A stretch of DNA of 31,768 nucleotides, taken from positions 1 to 31,768 of IMG/VR virus record IMGVR_UViG_3300025892_002985; one strand, given 5' to 3'. Shown here piece by piece: positions 12,829 to 24,299 of this stretch. The stretch is from a virus. Each line of letters opens with the position of its first letter. Within the stretch, counting starts at the first letter, position 1. The translations under genes were made by a program, and so were the position numbers. Below the pieces are notes generated by a model that was not told the DNA's origin, made no database searches, and saw only the letters and a list, made by a program, of their open reading frames with translations.

Positions 12829-13260
12829 ATGGACGAACGAACACAAGAATTAAAACTAAGAGAACTTGAGTCTACTTTACAGACTGCTAATAAAAATAAG
12901 GGATCGATTGAGATTGAGAGATACGCTGGAGCGAATTTCGATGTTGATACTACTTTCCAAATTACAAAAATGCCGTTTGATACACTATTAGTTCACTTTG
13001 AAGATGGTGATGCTGATGGTAAACTGAAAGGTGGTATTTATGTACCAAATGGCGCTACAGACACTAAAGTTTGGAGGACTGGTAAAGTATTAATGGCAGG
13101 CGCTGGGTGTCAATTAGTCCAAGATGGTGACTATGTTACCTTCCCTAATGATAAGGGTATCAATGCTAAGGCTATCAATGTTAAAGGTATGGGTATTGTT
13201 AATCACTGTATCTTTATTGCTGAAGATAGGATCTTCGCAATTAGTGAACGAGTGGAATAA
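12829..13260 (+). CDS. GroES-like co-chaperonin (gp31-type function)
   Basis: A 143-residue protein. Residues about 46-143 follow the GroES pattern: ITKMPFDTLLVHFED (the usual PL-DRVLV strand), a Gly-rich mobile-loop region DADGKLKGGIYVPNGATD, TGKVLMAGAGCQL, then VQDGDYVTFPNDKG and a closing EDRIFAISE in place of the family's EDDILAIIE. The first 45 residues are an extra charged extension absent from bacterial GroES. T4 gp31 replaces GroES for folding of the major capsid protein by host GroEL; a similar role in virion protein folding is likely. It starts 2 bases after the previous stop, so it is probably coupled to the gp62-like candidate. Confidence 0.75.
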   Translation: MDERTQELKLRELESTLQTANKNKGSIEIERYAGANFDVDTTFQITKMPFDTLLVHFEDGDADGKLKGGIYVPNGATDTKVWRTGKVLMAGAGCQLVQDGDYVTFPNDKGINAKAINVKGMGIVNHCIFIAEDRIFAISERVE

Positions 13261-14104: not shown

Positions 14105-15780
14105 TGAATTCACAATTATTTAAACACTTCCCACAAAATAGCGAACCTAGAGAAAATCAAGTAAAACTGTTAAATCAGATCATTGATGCATTAAATACTG
14201 ATAAAAAATTTATCGTAATTAATGCTCCAACTGGGACTGGTAAAAGTTTTCTAGCGGATACTTTAGCCAATTCAAGTGATGATGCTGAAAGTGCTTATGT
14301 TGATTTTGTAAATTCTTATAAAATTTGGAATCAATTAAATGGACCTGATGATGCTCGGGGTTTCTCGAATTCAGGTGCTGCTGTATTAACTGTAACTAAA
14401 AATCTTCAAGATCAATACACAAAAGATTTTACAGAATTGAATTTACTTAAGGGTAAATCTAATTATGCGTGTAATTATGATAATGAATATGATGTTGAAA
14501 ATGCTCCATGTAATACTTCTGGTGGTAGTGCTTTAAGAAAACAGTGTTGGGCATGTGATCGATGCGATTATTATAATGATAGAAATTCTAGTTTAGCTAA
14601 TAAGAAGGGTGTGTTTAATTATGACGTATGGTTGAATTTACCAAAATATGTTCGTAAGAAAGAAGTTCTAATTTGTGATGAATCAAGTGAGTTAGAAAAT
14701 ATTTTGATCTCTCATTTTTCTTTACAAATTGATTATCAAACTCTAGAGAAATTATTTGACATGAAAAAATACCCTAGAATACAATCTGAAACAGATAAAT
14801 CTGGGTATAATTGGCTTTCACAATTATCTGAAAACGTCAAATCAACCATCGAAGACGCTGAGGAAATCGCTTCAGGTAAGTCATCATCTGCTAAAATAGC
14901 TAAGAATAAATTAAAATCATTAAAAAGATTAGATAATTCTATAGATCGTGTTTTAGATAATTGGGGTATTAATGGGGAAAATGATAATTCAGTTGAATAT
15001 ATTATAGAAAAAATCGCTCCAAATAAATTTAATAAGAAAATTAAGGAGGGTATCACATTCACCCCATTTCGTGCTAATAAATTATCTAATCGATTATTTT
15101 CAACAGCTGATCGAGTTGTTTTACTTAGTGCAACTATTATTGATCATAAAAAAGAGATGATGGATCTAGGTATTAATCGAGACGAATATGTTTATATCGA
15201 GGCACCTAGTTCGTTTGATCCAAATAAATCACCAATTTATATTGTAGATAAATACCCCCTAACTTATAATTTGATTGATAGTAATTTACCTAAAGTTACT
15301 GAATTAACGAAACGTATTTTGGATAAACATCATAATCAAAAGGGTTTAATACATACAGTTAGTTTCAAGATTACAAAATCAGTTGAACAATATATTAAAG
15401 ATTCTCGATTAATATTTAGAGAAACTGGTAAGACTAATGATATGCTCCTTAAAGAGCACTCAGACAGCGATGAGCCCACCGTGATGGTTAGCCCATCGAT
15501 GAGTCACGGTGTTGATTTGAAAGGCGATTTGGGGCAATTTCAGGTCATTATGAAGGTACCCTACCTACCGCTTAGTAGTAAGCGTATTAAACGACTATCC
15601 AAAGAGGATTATCAATGGTATGTTAATAAAACTTTATCAACCATTGTTCAGATGGCTGGTCGGTGTACACGTAATGATACAGATTCTGCTAAAACATACA
15701 TTTTAGATGGATCTGTTGTTGATTTGTTAAAAAGAAATTGGAATAAACTTCCTAAATATTTTAGAGATAGGATTAAATGA
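14104..15780 (+). CDS. DinG/XPD-type superfamily 2 helicase with probable Fe-S cysteines
   Basis: A 558-residue protein. Walker A APTGTGKS is at 41-48, and a DEAH-type motif II appears as ICDESSELE (Asp192-Glu193). Between them lie five cysteines (123, 136, 148, 151, 154) in a SNYAC ... CWACDRCDYY arrangement like the Fe-S domain of the XPD/DinG helicases. LLSATI (340-345) is motif III-like, and QMAGRCTRN (516-524) is motif VI with its arginine finger, inside a helicase_C_2-type domain (VSPSMSHGVDLKGDLGQFQV before it). These enzymes unwind DNA 5' to 3' in repair or R-loop removal. A phage role in recombination or replication is inferred. It overlaps both neighbours slightly, so it is read as one operon with them. 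Confidence 0.8.
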   Translation: MNSQLFKHFPQNSEPRENQVKLLNQIIDALNTDKKFIVINAPTGTGKSFLADTLANSSDDAESAYVDFVNSYKIWNQLNGPDDARGFSNSGAAVLTVTKNLQDQYTKDFTELNLLKGKSNYACNYDNEYDVENAPCNTSGGSALRKQCWACDRCDYYNDRNSSLANKKGVFNYDVWLNLPKYVRKKEVLICDESSELENILISHFSLQIDYQTLEKLFDMKKYPRIQSETDKSGYNWLSQLSENVKSTIEDAEEIASGKSSSAKIAKNKLKSLKRLDNSIDRVLDNWGINGENDNSVEYIIEKIAPNKFNKKIKEGITFTPFRANKLSNRLFSTADRVVLLSATIIDHKKEMMDLGINRDEYVYIEAPSSFDPNKSPIYIVDKYPLTYNLIDSNLPKVTELTKRILDKHHNQKGLIHTVSFKITKSVEQYIKDSRLIFRETGKTNDMLLKEHSDSDEPTVMVSPSMSHGVDLKGDLGQFQVIMKVPYLPLSSKRIKRLSKEDYQWYVNKTLSTIVQMAGRCTRNDTDSAKTYILDGSVVDLLKRNWNKLPKYFRDRIK

Positions 15781-16370
15781 TGGATAAAAAAATATTAATA
15801 GTTGGAACAGCTGGTGATGTTATCGACAAACGAAGAGGTGAAAAAATAAATCAATATTTTGATGACATATTGATTTGTAATAAAAGTATTTTTCACATCG
15901 ATGAATATAGTAAATATTTTGGAACCCCTACTATATGGGGTACATGTGGTTGGTATAATAATGATGAGATTTTTGACCCAACTTGTGAAGAAAAAAGTAA
16001 AATATATGATATTATTATTAAAAATAATATATCCAGAGTTTGGTGCAATTCTCTTAAAAATATCAATGATTTAGATTTTGAAATACCTGATAATGTTCAA
16101 TATGATAATATAGTTTATCCATATAAACCTAACCAATATCATTCATTAGGTTTGCAGAGTATATTATACGCTATAAAACAAAAATATTCAGAAATATGTT
16201 ATTTAGGTATAGATTCATATAGAAAAAGCCATCATTATTATAAAGAACATATGCCATCAAATGTGATGACTGATGTTCATTCACAAAGTAATTATTTGTA
16301 TGAAAGTAAAATTATAAAAATTTTAAAAAAAGAAAATAAATTATTTCACATAGGTGAAAAAATTAAGTAA
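15777..16370 (+). CDS. Sialyltransferase-like glycosyltransferase (GT29/GT42-type fold)
   Basis: A 197-residue protein overlapping the helicase stop (ATGATGG gives two possible starts, 15777 or 15780). The N-terminus ILIVGTAGDVIDKRRGEKI then FDDILICNK resembles the CMP-sugar binding start of GT29/GT42 sialyltransferases (V-GN---L----G--ID--D-V-R-N). PNQYHSLGLQSILYAIKQK followed by EICYLGIDSY matches their later -P-TG---I-YAL----I-L-GFD-Y block. The C-terminus is His-rich around the expected catalytic area (SHHYYKEHMPSN). It is shorter than typical family members. The donor sugar is unknown. It heads a three-gene run with two radical SAM enzymes, pointing to glycan or small-molecule assembly. 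Confidence 0.5.
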   Translation: MMDKKILIVGTAGDVIDKRRGEKINQYFDDILICNKSIFHIDEYSKYFGTPTIWGTCGWYNNDEIFDPTCEEKSKIYDIIIKNNISRVWCNSLKNINDLDFEIPDNVQYDNIVYPYKPNQYHSLGLQSILYAIKQKYSEICYLGIDSYRKSHHYYKEHMPSNVMTDVHSQSNYLYESKIIKILKKENKLFHIGEKIK

Positions 16371-16412
16371 TAGAATAGAATTATGAAAAAATTAAGTAAT
16401 AGAATAGAATTA
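16355..16412 (+). repeat. Perfect 29-bp tandem duplication at a gene junction
   Basis: Bases 16355-16383 and 16384-16412 are identical (each begins TGAAAAAATTAAG and ends TAGAATTA). Copy 1 encodes the last residues and stop of the upstream gene; copy 2, in another frame, encodes the first residues of the downstream radical SAM protein, its ATG formed across the copy boundary. Confidence 0.9.
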
Positions 16413-17171
16413 GTTGAATTAAATGTAACTGAATTATGTAATAGAACCTGTTGGTTTTGTCCTAGACATGATTCAAATGTTTACCCAAATCAAAATAAAC
16501 ACATGTCTATTGAGACATTTGAATACGTATTAAAGGCGTTAAAACAATCGGAGTATACTGGTGATATAACTATTTCAGGGTTTTCAGAACCACTTTTGTG
16601 TAAAAATCTTTTTAAAGGGTTAGAAATTTTATCTAATCATTACCCTATAGAGATAATAACAAATTTTGATAAATTAACTGTTGAAATATTAGAGAGGTTA
16701 GATAGCTTTAATTTAAAGTTATTAAAAATAGATTTATACGATGGAATACATCAATTAAATAAATTAAATGATATGTTGAGTAAATCTAATTATAAAAATG
16801 AGATTTTAATTAAAAAGGTTTATGATCAAAGTGAAAGCGACTTAGAATTTTATAATAGGGGTGGAACTGCCCCGTTCGATAGTTCTTATGGTATAGATGT
16901 GAATAGACCGTGCCACATCCCATTTTATAAGGCTATGATAGATTGGCAGGGTAATTATATGTTGTGCCATTCAGATTGGCACAGAGAGTCTGATATTAGT
17001 GTAAAATATGACTACAATGTTAAAAACATGTCTTTAGAACAATACTTAAAGAGTGAAGGTTATGTTGAATTTGTTAAGAATATGGTAGTTTCTAAAAGAA
17101 AAGGGTTAACACCTTGTGAAAAATGTGATATAGGTGGTATATCGAAAGGTCATTTATGGAGCCACGTGTAA
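16383..17171 (+). CDS. Radical SAM enzyme with SPASM-type C-terminal domain (first of two)
   Basis: A 262-residue protein. The radical SAM CxxxCxxC motif is at Cys19, Cys23 and Cys26 (ELCNRTCWFCPRH), followed by a GFSEP motif in place of the usual GGEP (residues 66-70). The C-terminal part has Cys177, Cys195, Cys245 and Cys248 (NRPCHIPFY; YMLCHSDW; PCEKCD), fitting a SPASM or twitch domain that binds auxiliary Fe-S clusters. Such enzymes modify peptides, sugars or cofactors by radical chemistry using S-adenosylmethionine. No precursor-peptide gene is visible nearby, and the neighbours are glycosyltransferases, so a sugar or protein-linked glycan substrate is inferred. Its ATG comes from a 29-bp tandem duplication. 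Confidence 0.8.
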   Translation: MKKLSNRIELVELNVTELCNRTCWFCPRHDSNVYPNQNKHMSIETFEYVLKALKQSEYTGDITISGFSEPLLCKNLFKGLEILSNHYPIEIITNFDKLTVEILERLDSFNLKLLKIDLYDGIHQLNKLNDMLSKSNYKNEILIKKVYDQSESDLEFYNRGGTAPFDSSYGIDVNRPCHIPFYKAMIDWQGNYMLCHSDWHRESDISVKYDYNVKNMSLEQYLKSEGYVEFVKNMVVSKRKGLTPCEKCDIGGISKGHLWSHV

Positions 17172-18127
17172 TGGTAAAAAACTTATGGAATAGTGAAGTC
17201 AGGATAGAACCAACTAATTTATGCAACTATAGTTGTACGATGTGTCCTAGAGATAAACATACTAGATCTAAAGGGATTATGAGTATGAGTCTATATGAAT
17301 CAATTTTAGATCAGATTGTTGAGTTGGGTGCAAAAAAATTAGTATTAACTAACTTCGGTGAACCATTTATTGATCCTAATTTAGAATTAAAAATAAAATT
17401 AGCTAATCAATGTGGTTTAAACACATACATTATAACGAATGCTTCATTATTTGATAAACCGTCTAATTATAATCCCAATAAAACTAAAATACAATGTGCT
17501 ATAGAAAATGGGTTAAATGAATTACGTCTTAGCTTCTATGGGAATAACCCTAAAAAATATTCAAATATAATGAGGGGTGGTGATTTTTATAAAGTTATAG
17601 AAAATCTAAAACTATTGAAAAAACATAAAGGTGAATGTGAAATTTCTCATTATGTTTTACAGTTTAATGAAGAAGAAGAAGACTATTTAAAATTTCCAAA
17701 AGAGATAAGAGATGTTATTGATTATTATGAAATATGGAAACCACATAATTTTGGAGATGGTAGAGAGTATAGAGATATCCAAAAATCTTCGAAAAAATCG
17801 TGTAACAGACCTCAAGGTGGACCGTTGCAGATAAATTGGTCTGGTATAGTAGTACCATGTTGTTATGATTATAATGAAAATATAATATTAGGTGATGCTT
17901 CAAAGCAACCTATAATTGACATTTTAAATTCTAAAAAATATAACAAATTAAAAGAAGCTCATGAAAAAAATGATTATAGTGGGTTTAAATATTGTAACAA
18001 CTGTGATCAATTATTGTGTAATAAATCGAAAAATAGTATCGTATATAGTAGTAACCCTAAACACTCTGATTTGTCTAAATCGCAAATAATTAAAAGGACA
18101 AATACTGACCCAGATATAATTTTATAA
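17156..18127 (+). CDS. Radical SAM/SPASM enzyme (second of two)
   Basis: A 323-residue protein counted from the ATG at 17156. A second ATG at 17171 overlaps the upstream stop by one base (TAATG) and may be the true start. The CxxxCxxC motif is at Cys23, Cys27 and Cys30 (NLCNYSCTMCPRD), with NFGEP as motif 2 and YIITNASL after it, typical of the SPASM subfamily. The C-terminal region has Cys216, the pair Cys235-236 (VVPCCYDY), and Cys280, Cys283, Cys288 (KYCNNCDQLLC), a fuller auxiliary-cluster set than its neighbour. The two enzymes share the fold but differ greatly, so they probably do successive steps. Its stop lies 3 bases from the end of a convergent gene. Confidence 0.85.
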   Translation: MEPRVMVKNLWNSEVRIEPTNLCNYSCTMCPRDKHTRSKGIMSMSLYESILDQIVELGAKKLVLTNFGEPFIDPNLELKIKLANQCGLNTYIITNASLFDKPSNYNPNKTKIQCAIENGLNELRLSFYGNNPKKYSNIMRGGDFYKVIENLKLLKKHKGECEISHYVLQFNEEEEDYLKFPKEIRDVIDYYEIWKPHNFGDGREYRDIQKSSKKSCNRPQGGPLQINWSGIVVPCCYDYNENIILGDASKQPIIDILNSKKYNKLKEAHEKNDYSGFKYCNNCDQLLCNKSKNSIVYSSNPKHSDLSKSQIIKRTNTDPDIIL

Positions 18128-18130
18128 TAC

Positions 18131-18853
18131 TTAATATATATATTTTCTATATTCTTCTTTCTTCATTAATATATTATAAAAATTATTATCAATCTCGTGT
18201 TGATATAAATCAGCACGAGATTGATTTATATCAACACCATGTATACAGTCGATATCATCACGATTAGATAAGTTAACTCCTCTTAGTTGTATATTCACAT
18301 CTCTCCAAGATATGAAACACTCTGACACGCCTTTATATAATTTGTCATAGGTGTATTCTATTATACATCGTTCTTGTGGGCATTTTAAATATTCGTTTTT
18401 AATGTTTTCTATCATTTTTTTAGTATCAGCTGTTTTTCTAAAACATGATATACCAGCATCACTACAAAAATAAGGTATTCGTTTTTTTGTTAAATTATGA
18501 TTTTTAATCGTACTTGAATACTTTACTAATTTATCATTTAACATGAAAGCGTCTGGGTCCATGTATATGCATACCTCATTTTCAGTTAAAAGTTCATTGA
18601 TCATATTATACCAAACTCCAACTTGTGTTGACATTATATTTATAAATTTAGAGTTTTTGTGTAATATAGCGTCACTTTTAGATATTTTTATTTGATTTAT
18701 ATTTAATGGGATATTAACATCAGTATATATAAATATATCATCAATATTTATATATTGAGAGTTTTGTTTAAACCAAAATGGTAATAATTCATTTAGATAA
18801 AAATCATTGAGGGTTTTATCATCATTTTTAAAAAAAGAAGTAATTAATTTCAT
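18131..18853 (-). CDS. DxD glycosyltransferase-like protein (GT-A fold)
   Basis: A 240-residue protein. EVCIYMDPDAFML places a DxD motif at Asp99-Asp101 at the end of a hydrophobic strand, the usual metal and nucleotide-sugar binding site of GT-A glycosyltransferases. The opening (MKLITSFFKNDDKTLNDFYL) and a central GVWYNMINELL helix before the DxD also fit. Later HGVD around residue 214 could supply a second metal ligand. It is the last gene of the minus-strand fibre/glycosyltransferase run, and its start overlaps the aminotransferase stop (ATGA). Donor and acceptor are unknown. Two overlapping inverted repeats lie inside its 3' end. Confidence 0.6.
   Translation of the reverse strand: MKLITSFFKNDDKTLNDFYLNELLPFWFKQNSQYINIDDIFIYTDVNIPLNINQIKISKSDAILHKNSKFINIMSTQVGVWYNMINELLTENEVCIYMDPDAFMLNDKLVKYSSTIKNHNLTKKRIPYFCSDAGISCFRKTADTKKMIENIKNEYLKCPQERCIIEYTYDKLYKGVSECFISWRDVNIQLRGVNLSNRDDIDCIHGVDINQSRADLYQHEIDNNFYNILMKKEEYRKYIY
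18188..18237 (-). repeat. Two overlapping, mutually exclusive inverted repeats
   Basis: Repeat A: GTGTTGATATAAATCA (18197-18212) with TGATTTATATCAACAC (18222-18237), 16 bp perfect. Repeat B: ATCAATCTCGTG (18188-18199) with CACGAGATTGAT (18214-18225), 12 bp perfect. They share bases, so only one can form. On the minus-strand transcript A comes first, and B is followed by AATAATTTTT. Confidence 0.7.
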
Positions 18854-19767
18854 AAAACGGTTAAGTCGTGAAGTGTTATTCTATAACATTTTAAATCATT
18901 GAAAGTATATTCTTTAACTTTATAATTTTTATATTCACTTTTATCTTTTAGTAATATAAAATTGCCAGCTATAGTTAAGATATCATCTTGAAAGTATTTT
19001 TTAAATCGTTTGTATATTATAGATTTTAAATATTTGTCGAATTTATGTGTTATATTATTTTTTAAAATATATTCTAATATTTTTACTGTAGGTGAAGGTA
19101 AAAACATCGGTCTAATTTGATTTATATCATCTATAATAGATTCATTTGATGAATACACGAAACCAAACCTTTGACCAGTTATGCAACCCATTTTGCTAAA
19201 AGAACGTATTAAAATTAAATTAGGTATAGAAATTATAGGTGACATTGGGTTTAAATAAGCTTGATCTATAATTACATATTTAAATTTTTTACATAACTTT
19301 ATAATATAATCATCGTTTAATATTAATCCAGTTGGGTTATGTGGTGAAACTAGAAATATGATCTTTTCTTTAGTTTGTTTTATATGTTCTGTAGTAAATG
19401 AAAACTTATTATTTATAAAATTAACGTCTAATTTTTCGATATTACTATTATAATAGTTTAAATAAAAATCTATCATTTCGAATGTTGGGTTATTAATAAC
19501 CCAATTGTTGGATTCTTTTATTAACACCTCTATTAACGATTTTATAGCACACTCAGACCCATTGTGTATTGATATATTATTAATATTTATATTTAATTGA
19601 TGTGATAATAAATTTAATAATTCGAATGGTGATTTATAGTACATTAAATCAGTTGTTGATGTACTATAAAATGGTGTAATATATTTATTAATAAACACAG
19701 GAAATAGACACTCATTTCTACATAAAAAATGTGATTTACAATCATTGGATATACTGTGTCTTTTCAT
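18850..19767 (-). CDS. PLP-dependent aminotransferase, HisC-like (fold type I)
   Basis: A 305-residue protein, somewhat shorter than the usual 350 for this family. Class I/II landmarks are in order: SPHNPTG at 141-147, IIDQAY with Asp168 and Tyr171, the Schiff-base lysine in SFSKMGCITGQRFGF (Lys192), Arg200, and a C-terminal CYRITLHDL segment that supplies the usual substrate-carboxylate Arg. This resembles histidinol-phosphate or CobD-like aminotransferases. Lying between two glycosyltransferases with overlapping ends, it may make an amino sugar or amino-acid-derived substituent rather than histidine. Its first 26 bases overlap the upstream gene. The N-terminus is Cys-rich (Cys10, Cys16, Cys20), which is unusual. 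Confidence 0.8.
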   Translation of the reverse strand: MKRHSISNDCKSHFLCRNECLFPVFINKYITPFYSTSTTDLMYYKSPFELLNLLSHQLNININNISIHNGSECAIKSLIEVLIKESNNWVINNPTFEMIDFYLNYYNSNIEKLDVNFINNKFSFTTEHIKQTKEKIIFLVSPHNPTGLILNDDYIIKLCKKFKYVIIDQAYLNPMSPIISIPNLILIRSFSKMGCITGQRFGFVYSSNESIIDDINQIRPMFLPSPTVKILEYILKNNITHKFDKYLKSIIYKRFKKYFQDDILTIAGNFILLKDKSEYKNYKVKEYTFNDLKCYRITLHDLTVL

Positions 19768-20329
19768 TATAAATTTTTTTCATCAAATATGGGTTACCTA
19801 TTCCAGCTAAATGATATACAAATGGTTTATAACATTCTTGTCCCATATTGTGGATATAATTGATAGCATCTTCATGTTTTATATTTAAACATGATAAATC
19901 TAAATTATTAAAATATTTTTCTTCAGCTAAATAATTATAATTTTTATTAACATCTAATAAAATATCAATAATTCTATTAGTGTGACTTGTATTATACCAT
20001 ATAGAACAACCTAGTAACCAAGTATTCAGTTTAGATAAAATTAAATCAGAATTATGGTTATCGTATATTAATTTTTTTAAATTATAATTAGAATTATATA
20101 TAAAGCTATCGTGATCTGTTATATAAATAACATCATATTTTTTTATATATTTTTTTAAAATATATATTTTTATCCAACTCAATTTAAAATTTATATTTTC
20201 AAATTGGTTAACATCCTCATATATATAATCTATATTATTTTTTTTACAGTATTCTATTTTACTTTTTTCGAACCGTTTTAGTATTGTTCTAAAATATATA
20301 TCGGAATAAGATATAAGGCATATTTTCAT
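19742..20329 (-). CDS. Glycosyltransferase, GT34-like
   Basis: A 195-residue protein. The run KLSWIKIYILKKYIKKYDVI followed by YITDHDSFI has the layout of GT34 galactosyl/mannosyltransferases (W-K---I---L--YDWV-WLD-D): a helix with Trp and Lys, then a strand ending in a DxD motif, here Asp72-His73-Asp74. Next, LNTWLLGCSIWYNTSHT corresponds to the family's N-G-F--R/N segment. It has no membrane anchor, unlike yeast members. Its start overlaps the preceding unknown gene by 4 bases (ATGA), so it is translated with the fibre operon. The sugar is unknown. Confidence 0.65.
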   Translation of the reverse strand: MKICLISYSDIYFRTILKRFEKSKIEYCKKNNIDYIYEDVNQFENINFKLSWIKIYILKKYIKKYDVIYITDHDSFIYNSNYNLKKLIYDNHNSDLILSKLNTWLLGCSIWYNTSHTNRIIDILLDVNKNYNYLAEEKYFNNLDLSCLNIKHEDAINYIHNMGQECYKPFVYHLAGIGNPYLMKKIYNEKTQYIQ

Positions 20330-20898
20330 TTCATTATAGAAACTAAAAATGGTATATATTCATTTTGTTCTGAAAAAAGTGTAGGCCAGTTTTCTAAAAT
20401 TTGTTTAATATCATTACACTCATCTAAAAACTTATTATATTTATCGAAACAAATTTTAGTTATTTCTAATAAATTTGTTTTTTCTGTTTGAGTTATGTCT
20501 TCATCCTCATTAATATAATGAATTTGTTCATTATGTGATTGCTCAATTATTTGTTTAGTATTTTGTTTAAGTTCATCGATACTAATATTGAATATAGATG
20601 TTTCTTTTATAAAATTAAGTTGCCGTAATCCGCATATTTCCGCATATTTTATATGCGGTTCTAATGATTCATAAACAATTTTATAATCATGATTATTAAA
20701 TTGTTTACGACTTAATTCTATAAAATCAATATGTTTGTCATATTCTGATTTGTCATTTAAAACCTGTAATGTTTTATTTAATAATTTTATCTTGTTTTCA
20801 ACATCGTTTATTAAAATGTAAGCATATCCCGATTGTGATTCTAAAAAAATACCTCTTTCGGTTACCTTGTTATTTTCGTGTATAATAGCGTATCTCAT
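20326..20898 (-). CDS. Hypothetical protein after a fibre gene; possible fibre assembly factor
   Basis: A 190-residue, strongly helical and charged protein starting 3 bases after the fibre gene's stop and overlapping the next glycosyltransferase by 4 bases. The N-terminus MRYAIIHENNKVTERGIF looks like a short beta hairpin, as in some tail-fibre assembly proteins, followed by long helices (NKIKLLNKTLQVLNDKSEYD; DELKQNTKQIIEQSHNEQ). Fibre chaperones often sit directly after the fibre they serve, so such a role is plausible, but no family is recognised and it could instead belong with the glycosylation enzymes. The gene contains a palindrome, CCGCATAT-TTT-ATATGCGG, at 20640-20658. Confidence 0.5.
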   Translation of the reverse strand: MRYAIIHENNKVTERGIFLESQSGYAYILINDVENKIKLLNKTLQVLNDKSEYDKHIDFIELSRKQFNNHDYKIVYESLEPHIKYAEICGLRQLNFIKETSIFNISIDELKQNTKQIIEQSHNEQIHYINEDEDITQTEKTNLLEITKICFDKYNKFLDECNDIKQILENWPTLFSEQNEYIPFLVSIMK

Positions 20899-20901
20899 AT
20901 T

Positions 20902-22008
20902 TTATAGGGTATAAACATTATTGGAAGTAGTATTGAAACCAACAGAAACTGTAAGCGATTTAGACTTATATGTTGTTGCATTTAAATCAGTTATAACTAA
21001 GTTGTATGAACCTGATGATAAACCTGAGAACAATATCAGATTTGACGCTGTATTATTTGTTGTGTTTATATCTGCAAAACTATGTGTATCAGATCTGGTA
21101 ATTCTAATATTATAAGTACCGTCAGATGATTTGGTGAAACTATTACTCATATTATTTAATGAAAGTGTAATTTTTCCATCATTATTCCAATGATATACGT
21201 GCCATGTTTCGGCTATCGTTGTTATATTGCCAGCTATATCCCACAGTATATATGGTTCGTATGTATCACTAACTTTTTGAATTTCTATAAACCCACCAAA
21301 ATTAGATGTTTCAGTAAAACCTAAATTATGGTACACTGACGCATATGCTGTTGAGCTATTGTATTTTTTATTCTTTAAAACTATCTGAGTATCGTCATCG
21401 AAAGATACTAACGTTTTTAAAACCATATTAGTACTATCATTACCAGATGCAAAGTTATGTCCGTTTGTTGATGAAGCTGTGTGACCTTTTATATCAATTA
21501 GTACTTGATTAGTCGCGGCATTAAATAATGCTGTGAAAGCGCCTGATTCAGTAACTGGAAATATTGAAAATATTTCATATGTCCCCCTACCTAAAGTAAA
21601 TGCATTTGAACTATTATTAAAATTTTTTATAATACCGCCATAATCTTTATATAAAAATATATCTCTAGCTACCCAGTCATATCCAAATATTACATTACTA
21701 TTATATCTTGATGTAAAATATGCTTTTTTAGCTGCTGTTGATTGTTTTACCCCAGTTATATTATTTGTAATAATACCTGTATTTTCTGTAATTTCTGTTA
21801 ATGAGTTGTTTATTGTGGTTATATTATTAGTTAAATTACCACCATCTCCAGTTATGATATTATCACTACCTATTTTTAAGTTTATAGATTTTAATTTTAA
21901 TGTCGAAGAACCTCTCTGTAATAAAAATAAATCACCATCTTCTACAGAAGTTGCTTCTTGTAAAATATTTATAGTATTGATTTCGGTGTTTGTCGTTACT
22001 TGTGCCAT
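20902..22008 (-). CDS. Tail fibre-like protein
   Basis: A 368-residue protein. The N-terminus (TTNTEINTINILQEATSVED; then GDLFLLQRG) is shared with the next two proteins on this strand and probably docks them to the same virion site. Residues about 60-90 are Asn/Thr-rich with heptad-like spacing (NNITTINNSLTEITENTGII), fitting a trimeric coiled coil. The rest is beta-rich, with an AFTLGRGTYEIFSIF strand seen in phage fibre heads and a C-terminal Ig-like part ending LTVSVGF. It has no enzyme motif. It starts 6 bases after the previous stop and shares its transcript with the glycosyltransferases downstream. Confidence 0.65.
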   Translation of the reverse strand: MAQVTTNTEINTINILQEATSVEDGDLFLLQRGSSTLKLKSINLKIGSDNIITGDGGNLTNNITTINNSLTEITENTGIITNNITGVKQSTAAKKAYFTSRYNSNVIFGYDWVARDIFLYKDYGGIIKNFNNSSNAFTLGRGTYEIFSIFPVTESGAFTALFNAATNQVLIDIKGHTASSTNGHNFASGNDSTNMVLKTLVSFDDDTQIVLKNKKYNSSTAYASVYHNLGFTETSNFGGFIEIQKVSDTYEPYILWDIAGNITTIAETWHVYHWNNDGKITLSLNNMSNSFTKSSDGTYNIRITRSDTHSFADINTTNNTASNLILFSGLSSGSYNLVITDLNATTYKSKSLTVSVGFNTTSNNVYTL

Positions 22009-22014
22009 TTATAA

Positions 22015-22995
22015 TTAACCTATTTTTAAAAATTCTGCTCTAAAATAAACTTCTGGTAAAGAACCTAGTTGGTAAGGTCTACCTAAATCAGTATTCATAT
22101 TATGTTCATAAAGACCTTGTTCAAATGAGAAAGTTCGTTTATTTTCACTATCGCTTCCGTCTACATATAATATGCAATCAAAATATGTTACAGTTCTTCT
22201 ATCATCTGAAGTTGTCTGACATACATAACTAATATATTTAGTACCGTATTGAGTATCGGCGACATTATGTCTCTTTAATCTTATGAGCGACATGATATGG
22301 TCATCAGCCCAAGCCTTTGCTTTAATATAATATGTTCCTGGTTTTAATCTAAAATTTCTACCACTCCCATTAAAATTCTCTACGATTGTACCTTGGTTTA
22401 ATACCATGGTATTAATATTTCTTTGAACAAACTGTAGTTTGTGGTTGTTGGCACCTTGTGTATTAATCGTTTCCTCGTATGTTTTTGAATCATAAACAGT
22501 TGGAGTCAAATCTCTTTCCACAGTTGCGCCATCAGCATAAACACCATTTGGTCGTTGTTCTTCTAATATGGCTAGTTGGTTTATTGAAGATGTAATATCG
22601 GATAACGTATCTTCAATATATGATAAAATTGCACTACTTGTAACTAATTTCTTTTCTGATCCAGTTATTGATGTTTCAATACCAATTTCCTCTGGATTAT
22701 CTCCACCAGCTAAATTACCTATAACTGTATTTTCCGATAATTCGCCTAGTTTTTGTATACTGATCGAACCATCTACTATCTGAGATGTATTCAGTGGTGT
22801 ACTTTTAACACTTAACTTACCTCCGCTTACCTCTATTGTGCTATTATCAGGTAAACCGTTGATAAAATTAGAGTAGTTTGATTTATATGATTTAAGACCT
22901 CTTTGAACGAGTATCAAATCATCACCACCAATATTACCAATGTCGGATAATTGACTAATTAATTTTAGTTGAGTGTTTGTTGTGATTGTTGCCAT
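22015..22995 (-). CDS. Tail fibre-like protein with jelly-roll-like head
   Basis: A 326-residue protein. Residues 1-65 are the shared anchor (TTNTQLKLISQLSDIGNIGG; DDLILVQRG; LPDNSTIEVSGGKL). The segment KLVTSSAILSYIEDTLSDIT, with a following coiled-coil-like stretch, is of a type seen in many phage fibres just before the head. The C-terminal 150 residues are beta-rich, with NFRLKPGTYYIKAKAWADDH, LIRLKRHN and a closing VYFRAEFLKIG strand, resembling C1q/TNF-like jelly-roll heads of fibre tips. A receptor-binding role is likely. A late promoter lies seven bases before the ATG and would also serve the genes down to 18131. Confidence 0.65.
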   Translation of the reverse strand: MATITTNTQLKLISQLSDIGNIGGDDLILVQRGLKSYKSNYSNFINGLPDNSTIEVSGGKLSVKSTPLNTSQIVDGSISIQKLGELSENTVIGNLAGGDNPEEIGIETSITGSEKKLVTSSAILSYIEDTLSDITSSINQLAILEEQRPNGVYADGATVERDLTPTVYDSKTYEETINTQGANNHKLQFVQRNINTMVLNQGTIVENFNGSGRNFRLKPGTYYIKAKAWADDHIMSLIRLKRHNVADTQYGTKYISYVCQTTSDDRRTVTYFDCILYVDGSDSENKRTFSFEQGLYEHNMNTDLGRPYQLGSLPEVYFRAEFLKIG

Positions 22996-23096: not shown

Positions 23097-24299
23097 TTAC
23101 GTCAACTGAGACACGCCTACGATAGTCCATCCCTGTGTTTTCCCAGAGCTAGAAGAACCATTGGAATTCATTCTTAATTTAAACTCGGTCTGTCCAGCTG
23201 AAAACGGGATGAACACCATAGCGCTTGACCCTGCGTCTTCATACTCATATTGTGACTTTATTATTGTCCAGTTCGATCCACCACCAAGGTTTGTTTCAAT
23301 GTATCGTTCAGTTCTGCTTCCATTAGTTGACCGTGTATAACATACGACGTATACGCCCAACACCTTAGATGGATCAACCCCTACCCCAAATGTCGCAACG
23401 TCATAAGAATATTCATCACCCGATATTTGGTCATATTGTTCAATAGATGTAATATCTAAATATCGTGGAACTTGTGGTTGTGAATTAGAATCAACATATT
23501 CTTTAACAGCTCTACTACTAACTAATGATTGGTGATTATTATTTATATCATCAGAAAGATCTGTATCTACGACCCAATTACTTACTGGTGTAGAATTGAT
23601 TGGTTCATCTGGATTAATCTCTTGTTCACGTTTCCACATATATACTGTGGTATATGGTTGGATATTGTTGTGAGGTTGGTCACTACCTTCAGTAGATGTT
23701 TTACCTACATTAGCAGAACTTGTTGTACCGTGTAAAATATATTCAAAGTTTGGATTACCTGGTTGTTGAGATCCGCTTTCCTGGTAGTTATAATCGCGTT
23801 CTAGTTGATTATTTGCAGTCAATGTACCAGTACCATCTGAACCAGTTGATGCAACGTAGTGATTATGACTAGGTATCTCATCTTCAGTTAATTGATGTTC
23901 ATACTCACCACCTGAAGATCCAATTGGAAATGATTTAGATGTTTGTTTAACATCTGTTCCAACTCCTTCACCTATCAGAACTTTACCTTCACCTATTCTT
24001 GACCATATCCCAAATCCTAATATTTCTCTAGGGTTTCTATCATCAAATGCATTTATATATATTGACCCTACTGGATACGTTTGTTTAAGAATAGATCCTT
24101 CTACTTTTAATCTATTTGTAGTTGGGTCCACTTTAATCGTATCATTGTCAGGAATAGATGCTATTAAACTACTGTGAGATAATTTAAATGATTGGGTATT
24201 TGTTTGAGATAAATATAAATCAGAACCGCTAATAGAAGTCTTATTAGGGAGCTCTCTTACCAGGATTACATCCTCTACATTGTTAATTGAATCAGCCAT
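23097..24299 (-). CDS. Tail collar/short-tail-fibre-type protein
   Basis: A 400-residue protein. The N-terminal 70 residues are the anchor shared with the next two fibre genes (SGSDLYLSQTNTQSFKLSHS; IPDNDTIKV). Residues about 74-225 are a phage tail collar-like domain: YPVGSIYINAFDDRNPREIL, GIWSRIGEGKVLIGEG, GGEYEHQLTEDEIPSHNHY with the HxH pair His145 and His147, and PHNNIQPYTTVYMWKR. In T4 gp12 an HxH motif binds metal along the trimer axis, so the same is likely. SLVSSRAVKEYVD near residue 265 precedes a further beta-rich C-terminal domain, an extra head not present in simple collar proteins. It starts six bases after a late promoter. Confidence 0.75.
   Translation of the reverse strand: MADSINNVEDVILVRELPNKTSISGSDLYLSQTNTQSFKLSHSSLIASIPDNDTIKVDPTTNRLKVEGSILKQTYPVGSIYINAFDDRNPREILGFGIWSRIGEGKVLIGEGVGTDVKQTSKSFPIGSSGGEYEHQLTEDEIPSHNHYVASTGSDGTGTLTANNQLERDYNYQESGSQQPGNPNFEYILHGTTSSANVGKTSTEGSDQPHNNIQPYTTVYMWKREQEINPDEPINSTPVSNWVVDTDLSDDINNNHQSLVSSRAVKEYVDSNSQPQVPRYLDITSIEQYDQISGDEYSYDVATFGVGVDPSKVLGVYVVCYTRSTNGSRTERYIETNLGGGSNWTIIKSQYEYEDAGSSAMVFIPFSAGQTEFKLRMNSNGSSSSGKTQGWTIVGVSQLT

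Follow-up and report, generated by a model that had tools for sequence, protein, structure and literature searches.

This study concerns a convergent unit of seven genes (15777-20898), a candidate phage glycan-modification cassette, in a 31.8-kb virus record, IMGVR_UViG_3300025892_002985, the whole of which is referred to here as the window. The plus-strand arm comprises a sialyltransferase-like gene (GT29l) followed by two genes for radical S-adenosylmethionine (SAM) enzymes, rSAM1 and rSAM2. Facing it on the minus strand are, outward from the point of convergence, a glycosyltransferase-like gene (w240m), an aminotransferase gene (AT), a GT34-like glycosyltransferase gene and the gene for w190m, a protein of 190 residues (Table 1).

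Table 1. Genes of the convergent unit and of the adjoining minus-strand run, with the basis of each assignment
Feature	Position	Strand	Basis
GT29l, sialyltransferase-fold transferase (GT29/GT42-like)	15777..16370	+	Fold, CstII profile match, orthologues at 48-55%
rSAM1, BtrN-like twitch radical SAM enzyme, predicted alcohol dehydrogenase	16383..17171	+	Pfam, BtrN profile match, conserved residues
rSAM2, second twitch radical SAM enzyme, possible epimerase; start may be 17171	17156..18127	+	Pfam; BtrN, DesII and BlsE matches
w240m, probable GT-A transferase (DPD motif)	18131..18853	-	Invariant motif; weak hhalign match to the GT34 gene
AT, HisC/CobD-like aminotransferase dependent on pyridoxal 5'-phosphate (PLP)	18850..19767	-	PF00155, conserved PLP site
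GT34-like glycosyltransferase	19742..20329	-	PF05637
w190m, conserved cassette protein between fibre-like and sugar genes	20326..20898	-	Orthologues in full cassette contigs
w368m, probable fibre-like protein, directly upstream of w190m on the same strand	20902..22008	-	3-bp gap; weak L005 match
w326m, probable fibre-like protein, N-terminal motif in common with w368m	22015..22995	-	Open reading frame
gp10 C-terminal-domain baseplate/tail protein, heading the minus-strand run	23097..24299	-	PF21939, E 7.8e-28; PHROG tail families

Organization and recurrence of the unit

The three plus-strand open reading frames, of 197, 262 and 323 residues, lie where the initial annotation, made from the sequence alone, had placed them (15777-18127), and the rSAM2 stop is indeed only 3 bp from the opposing stop of w240m. 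From the helicase gene that precedes the unit through the second fibre-like gene beyond it, the spacings are -4, 12, -16, 3, -4, -26, -4, 3 and 6 bp, the first two being the overlap of GT29l with the helicase gene and its distance from rSAM1. The tight packing described earlier is therefore found throughout, but rSAM1 and rSAM2 overlap by 16 bp, and by the 1 bp originally reported only if rSAM2 begins at the methionine that forms its sixth codon (17171). Since every gap between 15777 and 22995 measures at most 12 bp, a precursor peptide gene would not fit, which bears out the remark that none is visible nearby.

When profiles of all seven proteins were compared with all loci seeded by rSAM1 and rSAM2 scans, the seven-gene convergent block was found to recur on four other viral contigs (L003, L005, L013 and L014), at 20-67% identity to the window. 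As L013 and L014 are near-identical, this amounts to three independent lineages besides the window. One contig (L003/L016/L059) has a GT42-like gene, rSAM1 and rSAM2 facing w240, AT, GT34 and w190; L013 and L014 carry the full block plus a second GT42-like gene; and in L005/L015 the block is extended by another rSAM1 and another GT42-like gene, its weak w190 match being sited elsewhere. The start of the block is also present on a short contig (L021). Both radical SAM genes thus co-occur in other phages with the transferases, a linkage for which a search had been suggested, and with AT. The initial inventory of three transferases, one aminotransferase and two radical enzymes was correct as far as it went, but incomplete, as w190m also belongs to the unit.

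Within the cassette contigs, identities to the window are 46-66% for rSAM1, 59-67% for rSAM2, 48-55% for the first gene, 36-43% for AT, 37-46% for w240m, 35-41% for GT34 and 20-35% for w190m. The closest relative varies by gene (L003/L004 for rSAM1, L013 for rSAM2); the alleles are mosaic, and gene content is kept. In L003 and L005 the minus-strand arm is bordered by genes that PHROG matches identify as tail fibre genes, and in L013 by a gene for an unassigned 1919-residue protein, with a T4 neck protein gene on its far side.

The same partners were recovered by single-gene queries. The AT profile, which was built from cassette members and so finds near kin, yielded 11 loci as the sole query. 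In every one of them rSAM1 lies less than 4 kb away, at spacings from -14 to 3508 bp (the two genes overlapping in L143 and L148), and 10 have a GT42-like gene. Of these loci, L142, L144, L147, L149 and L150 fall on known contigs and L141 shares its contig with L077; L140, L143, L145, L146 and L148 represent additional contigs, although L140 and L145 look alike. AT of this type was not found without rSAM1, which does not imply the converse, an AT beside every rSAM1. The w240m profile, used alone, returned only the four known cassette contigs and L155, on the same contig as L146, where w190, AT and w240 face rSAM1, GT8 and GT42. AT also occurs near rSAM1 in Synechococcus phage S-SCSM2R (AT then rSAM1, near a long tail fibre gene), in Campylobacter phage CPt10, and in L007, L008, L065-L068 and L132. 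A scan of viral sequences with GT29l as a single protein found nothing.

Predicted enzymes of the cassette

Both rSAM1 and rSAM2 exceed the Pfam cut-offs for Radical_SAM and SPASM. The rSAM1 profile, comprising 13 proteins, matches BtrN, the 2-deoxy-scyllo-inosamine dehydrogenase of butirosin biosynthesis (PDB 4m7s/4m7t), from end to end (E 3.8e-36, the next family being at 5e-8). In an alignment of 96 relatives that takes in Campylobacter and Synechococcus phage genes, the radical motif CX3CX2C (C19, C23 and C26) is present in 95. C177, C195, C245 and C248 align to the four auxiliary-cluster cysteines of the BtrN twitch domain (C169, C187, C232 and C235), and E12, R159 and D198 to its E9, R152 and D190. 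All of these radical, auxiliary and further residues are retained in 89 to 95 of the 96 relatives, R159 in 95; its equivalent Arg152 in BtrN is presumably positioned at the reacting hydroxyl. rSAM1 differs from BtrN in being a phage gene product, distant in sequence, with a HisC-like PLP partner. On the strength of these alignments, it is predicted to be a BtrN-type twitch radical SAM enzyme acting as a sugar or polyol alcohol dehydrogenase. Its family is large, with a minimum of 481 members in a single virus collection.

Judged by profile comparison, rSAM2 is a sister enzyme of rSAM1 (hhalign E 5e-24), and its best named solved relatives are BtrN (6e-21), DesII (1e-11) and the cytosylglucuronate decarboxylase BlsE (2e-7). 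DesII and BlsE are radical SAM enzymes with sugar substrates; the rSAM2 profile matches only the radical domain of both, and rSAM2 has conserved HNFGDG and PCCYDYN motifs of its own. The initial annotation had counted four C-terminal cysteines in rSAM1 and six in rSAM2, which is correct, and had ascribed different auxiliary-cluster sets to them. The latter is not supported by the profile alignment, in which C216, C235, C280 and C283 of rSAM2 align with the four auxiliary cysteines of rSAM1, so that the same four ligand positions are present in both. The two extra cysteines are C236, found in 45 of 48 relatives, and C288, found in 4 of 48. No equivalent of BtrN Arg152 is present in rSAM2, which has Phe199 there, and Phe, Tyr or Trp occupies the position in 45 of the 48 relatives. 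C236 corresponds to BtrN F188, beside a cluster cysteine. rSAM2 may be a HygY/NeoN-type epimerase in which Cys236 donates the hydrogen, a suggestion made with low confidence because double cysteines are common in SPASM/twitch domains.

The proposed GT29/GT42-like nature of the first gene is weak by sequence and supported by fold. Its Pfam GT29 match (E 0.093) reaches 12.5 bits, below the gathering cut-off of 23, and its profile matches CstII at E 0.006. The AlphaFold2 model of GT29l (pLDDT 82) has sialyltransferases as its best structural matches, across the whole model: Z is 11.8 over 152 residues against ST3Gal-I and 10.3 over 171 against CstII, with related folds at 10.4 (SteA), 9.8 (MptE-type HPPK) and 8.8 (Maf glycosyltransferase). 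GT29l is nevertheless shorter than GT29/GT42 sialyltransferases such as ST3Gal-I, ST6GalNAc2 and CstII, at 197 residues, and only 13-18% identical to them. The model clearly points to the sialyltransferase fold class, a fold that does not fix the donor.

On the minus strand, AT exceeds the PF00155 cut-off (E 1.6e-16; 60.9 bits against 19.7), its PLP lysine, Lys192, is invariant and the partner residues are conserved; from its sequence it appears to be a HisC-like enzyme with an intact PLP site. The GT34 gene exceeds the PF05637 cut-off (37.4 bits against 23) and has no match among PDB sequences. For w240m, neither a Pfam match nor a credible PDB match was obtained, nor one to the glycosyltransferase of the head-module lineage described below. 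It carries an invariant Y-x-D-P-D-A-F sequence, and this D-P-D motif, with a weak hhalign similarity to the GT34 gene (E 0.0015), makes it a probable transferase. The model of w190m (pLDDT 86) shows a small beta domain with helices; no credible structural match was found, the best (Z 7.2) being to short helical chains.

Proposed glycan chemistry, acceptor and competing explanations

The genes surrounding relatives of both radical SAM enzymes include some that are linked to sugars. In L004 (10001-13047), rSAM1, a HAD phosphatase and a KdsB-type cytidylyltransferase above its subfamily cut-off face AT, and in L143 (7107-10238) a CTP_transf_3 and HAD pair lies beside AT and rSAM1. This arrangement hints at a sugar activated with cytidine monophosphate (CMP), possibly a 3-deoxy-D-manno-octulosonic acid (Kdo)-like amino sugar. 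Nucleotidyltransferases are found in L066 and L132. In L148, GT8, DegT, two NAD-dependent sugar epimerase-type genes and PIG-L precede AT and rSAM1, which are followed by a fibre gene with Mtd_N. A CMP-sugar synthetase is not a regular member of the cassette, since it occurs in some records only.

In a second phage lineage (L017 and L022-L028; for example L017:5627-9474, L022:5597-10470 and L028:5463-10336), an rSAM2 of about 45% identity lies between the major head protein and head-tail adaptor genes wherever the contig covers these. Its neighbours are sialyltransferase-family genes of phrog_4603, in most cases an FkbM methyltransferase, a phrog_1962 glycosyltransferase and another transferase-like gene. 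This cluster is likely a capsid-glycosylation module. GT29l aligns with the phrog_4603 genes at hhalign E 0.04, a value at which homology is not shown by sequence, and the comparison with the gene adjoining rSAM2 in L018 likewise gave no clear homology. Bacterial rSAM2 relatives (42-45%) have sugar epimerase, RmlD, Polysacc_synt_2, GT1, GT2 and SIS-domain genes as neighbours; in bacteria of unrelated phyla (L040, L043 and L047), the relative is followed by a TIGR04326-like surface carbohydrate protein, under its cut-off.

From the genes, their linkage, families, folds and catalytic residues, we infer the reactions, their order, the product and the acceptor as follows. rSAM1 would abstract hydrogen from a sugar or polyol, at a carbon that bears a hydroxyl, giving a ketone, which AT would convert to an amine. 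rSAM2 would make a second change to the sugar, perhaps an epimerization in which Cys236 supplies the hydrogen, and the sialyltransferase-fold enzyme, whose donor is probably an acidic sugar activated with CMP, would build or cap a short glycan together with GT34 and w240m. That the chemistry concerns glycans is highly probable, and the initial preference for glycan chemistry over maturation of ribosomally synthesized and post-translationally modified peptides (RiPPs) is sustained by the nearest solved relatives of the radical SAM enzymes, which act on sugars or aminocyclitols. The pairing of rSAM1 oxidation with AT amination is put no higher than an even chance, and the same holds for the reading of all seven genes as a cassette in which rSAM1 oxidizes, AT aminates and the transferases attach.

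Several observations weigh against this scheme. Radical SAM enzymes of related fold also use peptides and cofactors, and so distant a homology to BtrN does not determine the substrate. No CMP-sugar synthetase is present in the window, a 31.8-kb fragment. AT scores 105.5 bits against the HisC NCBIfam equivalog, whose cut-off is 276.6, and is under the CobD equivalog cut-off too, so that by sequence it may alternatively be a CobD-like decarboxylase. BtrS, the natural partner of BtrN, belongs to another aminotransferase class (DegT-class in the butirosin pathway). The partner of rSAM1 also varies, since a short gene like short-chain dehydrogenases/reductases (SDR) directly follows it in 58 of 74 surveyed loci (L060-L133), most of them without AT. 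On the rSAM1 tree, the SDR-linked genes form one clade, and several of the remaining clades include rSAM1 genes with AT nearby. Parsimony gives four changes in AT linkage; repeated gain is not claimed, because the outer rows of the tree stand on very long branches. Either partner could act on the ketone from a BtrN-type enzyme, AT yielding an amine and SDR an inverted alcohol.

Virion proteins of the phage itself, whether tail fibres or others, are the likely acceptor because the cassette sits within structural operons, and we lean slightly towards the virion. The main alternative, a host surface glycan, involves the same enzymes: lipopolysaccharide (LPS) or capsule would be altered during infection, blocking adsorption of competing phages. 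The authors of the pelagimyophage study interpret the glycosyltransferases of the host-recognition cluster in this way (PMC7029224); sialyltransferase-type enzymes and KdsB-like genes fit LPS sugars, and the bacterial rSAM2 relatives are found in surface polysaccharide loci. A host acceptor is nonetheless somewhat less likely, as the minus-strand arm comes after baseplate and fibre-like genes at spacings of 3-6 bp, the second lineage has rSAM2 and transferases between capsid and head-tail connector genes, and no lipid-carrier gene is seen in the cassette. Both the spacing from the fibre genes and the capsid/connector siting suggest late, virion-linked expression.

It is less probable still that the radical enzymes modify a peptide or virion protein directly, by RiPP-like or cross-linking chemistry, with the transferases as mere neighbours. 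SPASM/twitch enzymes commonly use peptides, w190m is constant in the unit, and the nearest NCBIfam matches of rSAM1 and rSAM2 include maturases, all far under cut-off. Against this stand the gaps too small for a precursor gene and the sugar enzymes among the best solved relatives. Neither enzyme has an N-terminal recognition (RRE) domain, the radical motif beginning at residue 19 in rSAM1 and 23 in rSAM2, and they have four common cluster cysteines instead of the seven of a full SPASM domain. Linkage to a precursor peptide or to an unrelated cofactor pathway, named at the outset as grounds for refutation, was found in none of the relatives examined. Some phages that hypermodify thymidine use radical SAM and PLP enzymes, and the presence here of both with glycosyltransferases bears a general resemblance to such systems. 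Synthesis of a hypermodified DNA base is nevertheless very improbable: nothing in the window supports it directly, 13 records contained no Tet/JBP match over cut-off, the unit is sited at tail genes, and the sialyltransferase fold and the CMP-sugar, epimerase and PIG-L neighbours are those of sugar genes. Hypervariable regions gather cargo and the cassette members are mosaic, as would be expected of a chance pile-up of unrelated accessory genes. This explanation, just as improbable, is largely refuted by the identical gene set in independent contigs, by the recovery of partners with single-gene queries and by dN (nonsynonymous) below dS (synonymous substitution rate) in 8 of 8 genes compared between L013 and L014, with few changes.

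Glycan modification of the virion can also be put in a narrower and more ambitious form, which we consider rather unlikely: a radical, NAD-independent route to an amino sugar, in which BtrN-type oxidation and HisC-like amination would be followed by placement of the sugar on the tail fibre by the sialyltransferase-fold enzyme, some phages later CMP-activating the sugar through a KdsB-like enzyme. If true, phage virions would carry a sugar not previously known from them, and the viral rSAM1 relatives, which number in the hundreds, would represent a very large sugar-acting radical SAM family in viruses.

Relation to known systems and neighbouring features

The logic of the cassette is like that of the Kdo8N pathway of Shewanella, in which KdnA and KdnB provide for hydroxyl oxidation and transamination ahead of CMP activation. 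KdnB is a metal/NAD alcohol dehydrogenase, whereas the oxidation enzyme of the cassette would be radical, and a KdsB-like gene lies beside rSAM1 and AT only in L004 and L143. Among phages, host-recognition regions of pelagimyophages have been described as containing glycosyltransferases and radical SAM cassettes (PMC7029224); in the passages considered, no module, enzyme type or reaction is assigned and neither the convergent unit nor the rSAM1-AT pair is described. Clusters of radical SAM genes were noticed in 2010 in Campylobacter phages CP220 and CPt10, their function left unassigned by the authors (PMC2853527). These clusters contain several rSAM genes, including a relative of rSAM1 at 28-29%, close to a PLP gene that encodes a threonine-phosphate decarboxylase domain. 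They differ from the cassette in having five rSAM genes (in CPt10, L033:4246-11301) and a putative glycine amidinotransferase, with no sialyltransferase-like gene noted. Within the open-access literature, no paper was found that joins BtrN, radical SAM and phage. We provisionally regard the seven-gene module and its chemistry as apparently undescribed in phages, which is in keeping with the initial suggestion of a candidate undescribed pathway for this specific module, but not for the combination of radical SAM and glycosyltransferase genes in host-recognition regions.

Radical SAM genes are common in phages of aquatic and gut bacteria and have been without a function since the Campylobacter sighting (PMC2853527). 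The recurring AT partner suggests a concrete two-step reaction and connects rSAM1 genes with the decoration of virions or hosts by sugars, a process relevant to the range of hosts infected, to escape from host defences and to rivalry among phages.

The plus strand of the window also carries a T4-like baseplate set (gp25 and gp6), PhoH, a GroES-like gene and the helicase. A promoter scan showed no excess over shuffles. Terminator-like sites between 11000 and 24600 number 8 against 2.9 expected from shuffles, several of them within coding regions on the opposite strand, and none lies in the 3-bp convergent gap. Beyond the minus-strand arm, w368m weakly matches the L005 gene that adjoins tail fibre genes, and w368m and w326m (20902-22995) resemble each other in an N-terminal stretch (TTNT...LFLLQRGS / LILVQRGL), in the manner of paralogous receptor-binding proteins. 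The GroES-like co-chaperonin gene, near PhoH, lies at 12829-13260 (PHROG E 8e-6).

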